Source: Pirellulales bacterium
GTDB taxonomy: Bacteria; Planctomycetota; Planctomycetia; Pirellulales; PALSA-1355
Direction of reading: 5' to 3'
NCBI GenBank assembly: GCA_022844125.1
Contig: JALHMI010000001.1
Coordinates: forward strand, 1-64,000
Length of the DNA: 64,000 nt
The notes below the pieces were generated by a model, which searched no databases, had not been told where the DNA came from, and saw nothing but the letters and a program-made list of their open reading frames with translations. Positions within the stretch are counted from its first letter, which is position 1. Each line of letters opens with the position of its first letter. Below, in pieces: positions 46,965-51,108 of the stretch. Both the position numbers and the translations under genes were made by a program.

Positions 46965-47945
46965 CTACTTCTCGACCACCCAGATGTTGCGGAACTCGAC
47001 CGGGTTGCCGTGGAACTGCAACATGAAGGGTCCGCGGCCGGGCGCTTCATTCGGCGCGCCGCCGGGGGTCAGGTTCGGCAGCTCGAAGTTGTCGTGGATC
47101 ACAACGCCGTTGTGCTTGATCGTCACCTTGGCGTTTGACGTCTTCTTGTCGCCCTCGAACTTGGCTGCCGTGAAGTCGACGTCGTAGGTCTGCCATGAGA
47201 GCGGTGGCAGGCACATGTTCACGGCCGGCTCTTTAAGCTGATAGAAGCCGCCGCACTCATTGTCCTTCCCCTCGAGACCGAATGAATCGAGGATCTGGCA
47301 CTCATAGCGGTTCTGCAAATACAGTCCGCTGTTGCCTCGCGCCTGACCCGTGGCCTGAGGCATGAACGGCGTCTTGAACTCGATGTGGAATGTGAAGTCG
47401 CCGAACTCGTCCTTGGTCATCGCGCCGGCTTGCAGCAGTTCGTTCTTCACGCGGCCGACTTTCCAGGCGTCGGTGTTCTTGCCGTCGAACAGCACCTTCG
47501 CGCCCTCGGGCGGAGCGGCGCCGAGCGTGGGGCTCTTGCGCTCGACCTTCGAGAGCTCGGCGAGTTCCATGCCCGAGGGATCCATAACCTTCATTTTGCC
47601 GTCCGCGATGACGGCCGAGCCGGTATCGCCCATGAACGTGACTTTGCCGTCTTCAGTCGTGGCGTCGACTTCGATCTGGGGCATGCCGCGTTCCCAGCCG
47701 TCGCCCGGCAGACCGCCGAAGAAGAACACACCATGGAATTTACCGTCTCCCTGGGCGATCACTTGCGCGCCGACCTTCATCGGTTCCGGCTGATCGGGAG
47801 CTTTGAGCTCGCCCTGATACTCACCCTGGATGGCAAAGTCGGGGCCGGCTTCGGCCGGGTCAATAAACGAGGGACCATCGGCCGCAAAGCCGTCGGCGGC
47901 AAACGCGAGACCAATGACGGTGGCAAACATCAAACGCCCGAGCAT
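46965..47945 (-). CDS. DUF1080 (3-keto-disaccharide hydrolase-like) secreted protein
   Basis: A 326-residue exported protein with a signal peptide (MLGRLMFATVIGLAFAADGF, cleavage near AFAADG). The DUF1080 domain covers the C-terminal 200 residues: VLFDGKNTDAWKVG, DFTFHIEFKTPF, GNSGLYLQNRYECQILDSFG and FMLQFHGNPVEFRNIWV are its landmarks. The N-terminal 120 residues are a separate beta-rich region. ATG 47945 has AGGAG seven bases upstream; the frame opens at 48074. The family hydrolyses or binds sugars, and activity here is inferred. Confidence 0.92.
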   Translation of the reverse strand: MLGRLMFATVIGLAFAADGFAADGPSFIDPAEAGPDFAIQGEYQGELKAPDQPEPMKVGAQVIAQGDGKFHGVFFFGGLPGDGWERGMPQIEVDATTEDGKVTFMGDTGSAVIADGKMKVMDPSGMELAELSKVERKSPTLGAAPPEGAKVLFDGKNTDAWKVGRVKNELLQAGAMTKDEFGDFTFHIEFKTPFMPQATGQARGNSGLYLQNRYECQILDSFGLEGKDNECGGFYQLKEPAVNMCLPPLSWQTYDVDFTAAKFEGDKKTSNAKVTIKHNGVVIHDNFELPNLTPGGAPNEAPGRGPFMLQFHGNPVEFRNIWVVEK

Positions 47946-48092
47946 GACAAACTCCTGAAGACGCAGAGTAGGTAGGTCAAAGAATGCGGAAGCCGCTATT
48001 TTGGCCTGCCGCCGCGAGCGGAGCAAGCGGCCCGGCAATCCTTGGGAAAATCGGCGTTTGGGGCCTACGATCACGGAGGGAGTAGGTCAGGA

Positions 48093-48461
48093 ATGATTTA
48101 CCGCGGAGGTACGCAGAGGGAAGAAGAGAACCACAGATGGACACAGATAAACACAGATGAGGAAGGCAGGGGACAGATCCACAGAATGCACCGTTTGGAA
48201 GAATGGGATTTTTGTCTGGCGTGGTGTCGTCGTGTCGTCGTGGTTGGTTTGCTTTTGACGGATGGAAGAGGGGTGAGGGCAACCACAACGACACCACGGC
48301 ACGACGCAGGAGCAGATTGGAAGCCGGCGGTGCGGCGGGTCTGTGGAATCCTTTACTATCTTCTCCTCCCCTCCCTCATCTGTGTTGATCTGAGTCCATC
48401 TGTGGTTCTCTTTTGCCTGCTTTCTCCTCTGCGAACCTCCGCGAACTCTGCGGTGAATCAC
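48093..48461. repeat. Long imperfect palindrome, nested inverted repeat element
   Basis: A 370-base imperfect palindrome. The left arm (48093-48170) contains ACCACAGATGGACACAGAT and the right arm (48361-48461) carries its complement with a few mismatches; both ends also match the GCGGAGGTACGCAGAGG-type sequence in opposite orientation. Inner arms (48215-48255 against 48277-48307, GTGGTGTCGTCGTG-like) and intermediate arms also pair, with the centre near 48262. Spurious frames translate as NHRWTQINTDE, an artefact I have seen as a recurring translation in intergenic repeats of PVC and other genomes. It may fold into a long hairpin. Confidence 0.75.
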
Positions 48462-49137
48462 TCGTCGGTGTCTTCTCGGTCGGCGCGCGGAAGGAGACAG
48501 AACACTCCATGAAAGAGGTTTGGCGCCGCAGCCTTCGGTCGAGCCGGGAGTTCAGTTTTTGGTGAGCTCTTTCGAGCTCGGTTAGACAAGTGATAGAATC
48601 CGACGGCCATCGACCGAAGGCTGCCACACGCGGGGCGCTACCGACTGCAGGGACGTTTCTTGGTACAAGGCGTCTCATCCTTGCCCGCACCGCCGAGCGA
48701 TTTCGAGTCCGCTTACTTTCCGATCACACGCGCCCGCCATGCGTTCAATGCGCGAAGGCATCGTTTCCAAATGCGCTGGCGTTTTTCCGCGCTTTGAAGA
48801 CCGCGGCTCATGCCCGAAGGGGTTGCCGTAGCTTTTCAAAACGCTTCACATTTATCGGGCGGTCCCTCGAACAAATCGGTGTTTCAGCAACGACGGCACA
48901 GCTCCCCTTTCACCCCAGACTCGAGTCTCTGGTGCAGTCGGAGAGACGTTTGCGACGGGACATAAGCGGCGCTGTACGTTGCAGGCCGCTTGCTCCGTCC
49001 TGGCGAGGCCAAAACTACAAATGTCTCGCAGGATGGCATTCACATCGAGTCGCATCAGTCAGATCGTCGTGCCAAGGTTGAGTCTGCCAGAAAGGGTGGC
49101 AAGATTTCAAGCGCGCAAACAGGCCAGGGGACAAAAT
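48462..49137. other. Gene-free tract with one structured inverted repeat
   Basis: No protein-like frame stands out between the two repeat elements. The one clear structure is the nested hairpin at 48528-48624. The rest is of ordinary GC-rich composition without tandem repeats. Confidence 0.45.
48528..48624. repeat. Nested hairpin, candidate structured element
   Basis: GCAGCCTTCGGTCGA (48528-48542) and its exact complement TCGACCGAAGGCTGC (48610-48624) form a 15-bp outer stem, which can be extended inward by GCC/GGC with a bulge. Inside, GAGCTC-TTTC-GAGCTC (48564-48579) forms a second hairpin. Could be a structured RNA, a recombination remnant or a repeat fold; none is proven. Confidence 0.5.
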
Positions 49138-49540
49138 GCTGCACCGCAGAGGTCGCGGAGGTGCGCCGAGGGAAGACAGAGGATCCACACTCGCGAAGCG
49201 CGAACATCAAAGATTCTTCGAGGAAGACGCAGGTTGCGGGCCGGAGAAGTGTGGTTCTTGTGTGCGCGCGGAGCGTGCGCGGGAGAGCTCAAAAAAGTTT
49301 GGGGCGGGGGCAGCGACGACGCGAATTCGAACGCCGTGGGCACCACAAAGGCACGAAGGTCACGAAACAAAAAGGGATGAGGATTAAGAGAAGCACAGAC
49401 GGACGCAGCAAAGTTCGTCCGCAGAGCAAATCGACTTTCTGCTGTTCATCCTTCGTGCCCTTGGTGGCTTTGCGGTTCCTGCTTCCCATTCGTGTCCTAT
49501 GTGCCCTCAGTGGTTCGATTCGGCCGACTTCTGCTTTTGC
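49138..49540. repeat. Second composite inverted-repeat tract
   Basis: The left part holds GCAGAGGTCGCGGAGGTGC-like sequence (from 49143), resembling the ends of the element at 48093. Further right, CACCACAAAGGCACGAAGG (49341-49359) is the near-complement of CCTTCGTGCCCTTGGTGG (49450-49467), giving an imperfect stem of about 19 bases with a 90-base loop. It belongs to the same class of intergenic repeats as the first element, though it is less complete. Confidence 0.6.

Positions 49541-49623: not shown

Positions 49624-51108
<1,485 letters not shown>

Follow-up and report, generated by a model that had tools for sequence, protein, structure and literature searches.

The 369-nt palindrome at positions 48093-48461 of the stretch of Pirellulales DNA analysed here (64,000 nucleotides, referred to below as the window) is probably a set of nested, gene-free miniature derivatives of mobile elements in which inverted arms frame a gene of the GxxExxY type, a reading to which we assign a probability of roughly 75%. 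Each layer of the palindrome would then be one pair of inverted arms, with each arm made of about three tandem copies of an 8-10-nt unit of the ACCRCRRAG type. The arms would mark where a mobile unit ends, copies deprived of their gene would persist as palindromes, and later elements would have lodged in the loop of earlier ones, producing the order A(B(C)).

Nested inverted pairs in the window

The palindrome lies between a gene of the 3-keto-disaccharide hydrolase family (46968-47945, minus strand) and a DUF1501 gene (49627-51108, minus strand), and contains three inverted pairs placed one within the other:

48102-48119, plus strand: core of the family A left arm; inverted partner 48426-48443, 17 of 18 positions matching; 59 genome sites at three mismatches or fewer
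48124-48166, plus strand: left arm of family B, with three tandem units each about 10 nt long; inverted partner 48370-48412, 40 of 43 positions matching; 45 genome sites at two mismatches or fewer
48219-48246, minus strand: family C arm, ACC end toward the loop; inverted partner 48280-48307, 24 of 28 positions matching; other pairs of a minus- and a plus-strand C arm in loci L064, L068 and L091
48280-48307, plus strand: second copy of the family C arm; inverted partner 48219-48246
48370-48412, minus strand: family B right arm; inverted partner 48124-48166
48426-48443, minus strand: core of the family A right arm; inverted partner 48102-48119; by eye, its end reaches about 48461

By eye, the resemblance of the left A arm to other A copies (TNACCGC...GCAGAGG) begins at about 48094. 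Families A and B, like family D described below, consist of inverted arms of tandem 8-10-nt ACCRCRRAG-type units with the ACC ends pointing outward; the inner pair, C, is of the same sequence type, but is a different repeat from A and B and is oriented the opposite way, with ACC inward. Folded as RNA, the palindrome reaches -197.3 kcal/mol; 100 dinucleotide shuffles average -128.4 (sd 6.3), and none of them is equally stable (z -10.9). The imperfect palindrome in a gene-free tract that a sequence-only reading of this DNA had described is thus real, down to its strong predicted fold, while its treatment as one single element is not supported, as at least two, and probably three, elements are nested in it.

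Two open reading frames were considered as a gene hidden in the tract (48087-48458, minus strand, and 48042-48509, plus strand), and neither has a match in Pfam. At gathering thresholds, Rfam gives no match over the palindrome tract, the sole Rfam match in the window being a tRNA at 2745-2817. A long hairpin RNA with a function of its own, another possibility raised in the sequence-only reading, gains no support from these results and is not needed to account for them.

A second, related element follows at 49137-49479 and is composed of a lone A-type arm and a D-type pair:

49137-49171, plus strand: lone A-type arm, 86% complementary to 48426-48460
49339-49366, plus strand: left arm of family D, part of a separate palindrome; inverted partner 49452-49479, 23 of 28 positions matching
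49452-49479, minus strand: family D right arm of the same separate palindrome; inverted partner 49339-49366

The surroundings are themselves repetitive. An interspersed, non-coding repeat some 0.8 kb long occupies positions 48480-49295; it shares 85-88% identity with C8:346010-346969 (locus L076; C numbers before a colon denote contigs), and 49034-49470 matches the end of contig C3 (L067) at 97.7% identity. The 0.8-kb repeat contains a separate inverted pair, GCAGCCTTCGGTCGA, at 48528-48542/48610-48624; a string resembling it, GTCGACCGAAGG, occurs in the palindrome of locus L285. This repeat yielded no empty site for the window palindrome, as its L076 copy is flanked by other repeats.

Distribution of the arm families in the genome

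The genome (6.44 Mb in 27 contigs) holds 45 sites matching the B motif at two mismatches or fewer and 59 matching the A motif at three or fewer, and the reversed-pattern controls give 0 sites in both cases. Included in these counts are two places with two B sites 10 bp apart in one arm (C1:435309/435319 and C27:19959/19969) and, for A, a short tandem array on contig C8. Within 700 bp of each other, A sites form 15 head-to-head, 0 back-to-back and 3 same-strand pairs, and B sites 14 head-to-head pairs with none of the other two kinds. Copy numbers and head-to-head pairing together favour the earlier suggestion of a non-coding repeat family or miniature element, and do away with the possibility of a single copy confined to this locus.

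The nesting observed in the window also recurs elsewhere. B pairs are enclosed by A pairs in six cases, and the reverse arrangement does not occur; in all 45 combinations of A and B within 400 bp, B sits inward of the A arm and never outward of it; and 27 of the 45 B sites are found within 400 bp of an A site, where random placement, a crude null, would predict 0.31. By eye, the spacers between A and B differ among copies in both length and sequence, so that the nested A-B arrangement is not one frozen composite. Searched with blastn against its own genome, the whole palindrome returns 107 pieces, and most copies are diverged (68-97% identity, short exact pieces aside); two near copies (93-95% over 112-122 nt) are interrupted by contig ends. 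Contigs C3 and C13 start within such 93-95% identical copies of the left half of the palindrome (C3:3-124, L066, and C13:3-114, L081), and the family may therefore disrupt assembly.

Searched alone, the motif of family C gives a weak signal, with 30 sites where the control has 20, in 41 stretches that had mostly been selected for matches. Its minus/plus pairs recur, however, in L064 (at 9127 and 9194), L068 (9551 and 9622) and L091 (1539 and 1608), and the C portion is also recovered by blastn at C1:186127 and C3:188548. One gene-bearing unit, L246, shows a tail-to-tail hairpin of the C kind at its edges, so the inward orientation of C may perhaps be explained as the terminal hairpin of an L246-like unit, or else as a junction of abutted ends.

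GxxExxY genes framed by the arms

The GxxExxY family (PF13366), whose members are PD-(D/E)XK proteins, has six matches at five places in this genome. At C13:82838-83155 the gene is apparently frameshifted near its start and lies inside B-type arms (C13:82.6-83.2 kb), at C25:20511-20857 it is broken and lies inside A-type arms with 0 mismatches to the A pattern on both sides (C25:20.4-20.9 kb), and at C13:7851-8204 it is open and has A-like arms; the remaining two places (L104 and L106) carry fragments without arms. Since A and B frame GxxExxY genes in the same genome, they appear to be the end repeats of gene-bearing units, of which the window holds a gene-free copy. The absence of a transposase, pointed out in the sequence-only reading, accordingly holds at the palindrome, but the same arm families do frame nuclease genes elsewhere in the genome. 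No gene framed by C was found in this genome; C-like arms surround GxxExxY genes in other genomes only (L168 and L169, with L116 below the threshold introduced below), and those of L168 and L169 are oriented opposite to family C of the window.

In its overall anatomy the palindrome resembles REPINs, hairpins spread by the Y1 (HUH) transposases known as RAYTs: it is likewise made of inverted doublets of a short repeat that form a hairpin, exists in many gene-free copies and belongs to families tied to a particular small gene, as far as the parts of PMC3116915 consulted describe them. The genome also encodes 10 Y1_Tnp matches, and an origin of the palindromes from such a transposase could be envisaged. 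Yet the four Y1_Tnp loci examined among the 10 (one truncated by the end of a contig) all lack A and B motifs within about 1.5 kb when up to four mismatches are allowed, and the genes framed by A and B arms encode a PD-(D/E)XK protein instead of a tyrosine transposase. Arms of about three tandem 8-10-nt units and the nesting of elements are further differences from the system described in those parts of PMC3116915, and we consider a REPIN/RAYT origin improbable.

Arms at GxxExxY and IVP loci in other genomes

For a systematic comparison, arms were scored by aligning the 450-nt left flank of a gene locally with the reverse complement of its right flank and taking the best match, with a threshold of 30 that we chose ourselves; random windows of the own genome (n = 700) have a 99th percentile of 27 and a maximum of 33. 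Among the loci retrieved, at most 30 per search and fewer than the matches listed, the threshold is reached by 25 of 29 GxxExxY loci (22 of the 24 from relatives and 3 of the 5 from the genome itself; the misses are L104, L106, L116 and L131) and by 25 of 27 loci of PF05635 (23S_rRNA_IVP), but by 0 of 24 loci of the ParE family (PF05016), where the highest score is 29. Loci with cut flanks were excluded (5 of 35 GxxExxY, 3 of 30 PF05635 and 6 of 30 ParE), as was L105, the second piece of the gene of L103.

The association extends over many phyla. In named genomes, a score of 30 is attained by 62 of 75 GxxExxY loci and one of 27 by 67 of them, this set being the best 80 of at least 579 confirmed matches, less 5 with cut flanks; control flanks taken 1.0-1.5 kb out at the same loci reach 30 in 1 of 62 cases. 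When flanks are swapped between GxxExxY loci, 11.5% of 5550 pairs reach 30, because many arms have a common consensus. Two of the three archaeal loci in this set have arms, both from Methanosarcinales (L201 and L210; the third, L200, is from Methanothrix).

The PF05635 units are framed by arms of the same build, although their protein is an unrelated four-helix one. The period of the repeats differs between the two families, at 8-10 nt in GxxExxY arms (match 0.44, 0.36 and 0.36 against 0.29 when shuffled; 62 arms) and 7 nt in IVP arms (0.70 against 0.37; 25 arms). The inverted heptamer arrays that frame PF05635 genes outside rRNA (L136-L165) are in some cases telomere-like (GGTTAGGG, L150).

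Heptamers bring to mind the intervening sequence (IVS) of Coxiella, a small selfish element with inverted ends, the single small gene S23p and, upstream of it, tandem heptamers (GACAGAT), according to the sections of PMC4990558 covered. The PF05635 units found here, with their heptamer arms, therefore look like its relatives outside rRNA. That IVS sits in an rRNA gene (PMC4990558, same sections), whereas the units here lie between protein genes, and arms of the A and B families go with GxxExxY. The window palindrome is not an IVS of this kind: it is located between two protein genes, and thus is no insertion into an rRNA gene, and PF05635, the gene that the inverted ends would frame, has no match in its genome.

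Variation at orthologous sites

Species of the same genus provide sites at which units can be compared, these being the sites where a comparison existed and not a sample of all sites. Two such sites are empty in one species: the GxxExxY unit of L265 (genome G036) occupies 498 bp between flank matches that are 9 bp apart in L289 (G020), and the IVP unit of L256 (G020) has its counterpart in L284 (G036), where the stop and start codons of the same two genes are separated by 21 bp (flanks 85-86% identical). A third site carries a GxxExxY unit in L252 (G020) and, in the orthologous L285 (G036; flanks 81-85% identical), gene-free outer ACC arms with two further palindromes inside, the second of which has, by eye, the arm type of the L265 unit. 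The L252/L285 site is the closest precedent for the nesting seen in the window. For the window palindrome itself no empty counterpart came to light, and no same-genus genome was returned for it.

At other sites the units themselves vary. In L123 and L269 (G016 and G032; flank identity 88-91%) the GxxExxY units are not the same and their arms also differ, each arm pair matching itself, as if one unit had taken the place of another. A unit is present at the same site in both species in L134/L118, L132/L263, L149/L139 and L250/L262; between L134 and L118 the identical change has occurred in both arms, some 400 bp apart, and in L149/L139 another repeat unit is present in both arms. L246 and L260 have the unit and the right flank in common, but not the left flank, and L107 and L109 only the gene and the right arm (72% over 398 nt), so that the latter two represent different sites. 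The congeneric pair G037/G021 gave no match, and none of the congeneric comparisons caught a recent transposition. Locus L132 additionally contains a gene-free palindrome (L132:2299-2429) with 7-nt units of the GGCAGAA type and short matches across G020 and G036, which looks like a dispersed family in the genus.

These observations bear on three further explanations. Miniature inverted-repeat elements (MITEs) are short and gene-free, with inverted ends and dispersed copies, all of which applies to the palindromes described here, and A, B and C could accordingly be the terminal inverted repeats of classical insertion sequences with a DDE transposase. The gene found inside such arms, however, encodes a PD-(D/E)XK protein and no known transposase, and no target-site duplication is evident by eye at either of the two empty sites read (L265/L289 and L256/L284). 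We rate this origin as very unlikely.

The arms might also be stationary regulatory sites, with inverted pairs of tandem repeats bound by a DNA-bending protein or acting as RNA hairpins. A role of this kind was proposed for sequences of Geobacter metallireducens that look similar from their description, where classes 1-3 of predicted global regulator binding sites consist of tandem 7-9-nt units and classes 1 and 2 form opposite-strand pairs at variable distance (PMC2700814, in the parts covered); these parts interpret the sites as binding sites, with no link to GxxExxY or mobility. That arms remain paired while they change would suit such a role, but neither presence and absence at orthologous sites nor the framing of particular gene families is expected from it, and we give it little credence.

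Finally, the arms could owe their formation or movement to a host process, for instance template switching, or to another enzyme, with the GxxExxY and IVP genes carried along as passengers. Two unrelated gene families within arms of the same build, and the joint change of both arms at fixed sites (L134/L118 and L149/L139), speak for this. Against it, the repeat unit differs in length with the type of gene framed (8-10 nt in GxxExxY arms and 7 nt in IVP arms), and similarity among the arms is correlated with that among the proteins (Mantel r 0.235, reached in 0 of 2000 permutations, n = 61), a correlation that shared host ancestry alone could also produce. On balance we regard the passenger scenario as rather unlikely.

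The GxxExxY protein

Residues D73, E83, K85 and Q97 (numbering of L116) are invariant in 44 aligned GxxExxY sequences. The family was compared with solved structures both by sequence, which gave one weak match (E 0.075), and through a structure model with a mean pLDDT of 95.3. With this model, Foldseek finds no match at E ≤0.001 (best 3syy, 4.3e-3), while VIA-align 2 places 4ic1 (SSO0001) at the top (Z 9.2, rmsd 4.5, 100 residues aligned); the other rows shown have Z ≤7.5, including Hjc (1gef; Z 6.6, rmsd 3.1, 85 residues aligned), and possibly reflect only a common arrangement. As far as the model goes, the comparison fits a PD-(D/E)XK fold for GxxExxY, without telling which activity it has. 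One GxxExxY protein used as query had no match among 50,697 phage records and 8 matches among 72,556 plasmid records. XisH (PF08814), an idea drawn from the portion of PMC4679880 consulted, was considered as a third armed nuclease family, and is present in 1 of 199 sampled genomes of the phylum.

Proposed mechanism and implications

How nested, gene-free derivatives of GxxExxY elements might arise can be outlined tentatively. The small PD-(D/E)XK protein would recognise the hairpin or cruciform into which the arms fold and cut there, repair or template switching would then move or copy the unit, and gene-free arm pairs would be mobilised in trans, as proposed for REPINs and RAYTs. We rate such nuclease-driven movement somewhat below even odds; since an unrelated four-helix protein is encoded within similarly built arms, mobilisation may be the work of a third party.

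More generally, GxxExxY genes of bacteria and archaea, together with many S23p/IVP genes, could be the coding parts of minimal mobile elements without a recognised transposase, each with one small protein between inverted arms of tandem units, and the dispersed palindromes could be their gene-free, nested remains. Because the arms change in step at both ends, the signal in such elements would be structural or self-templating rather than a fixed sequence. We hold this generalisation to be nearly, though not quite, an even bet. Our searches of the open-licence PMC literature brought up no paper connecting GxxExxY with flanking repeats, preprints and other licences lying outside this scope, so that absence from print is not implied; six chosen arm strings and the peptide HRWTQINTD likewise do not occur in open-licence PMC papers (preprints again outside the scope).

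If true, this would provide a likely role and a natural substrate for GxxExxY, a family that is widespread but hardly known beyond its name, and would connect dispersed palindromes with rRNA intervening sequences and with paired tandem-repeat sites that have elsewhere been read as regulatory. The occurrence of gene-bearing, gene-free and empty states at comparable sites would make the mechanism testable.
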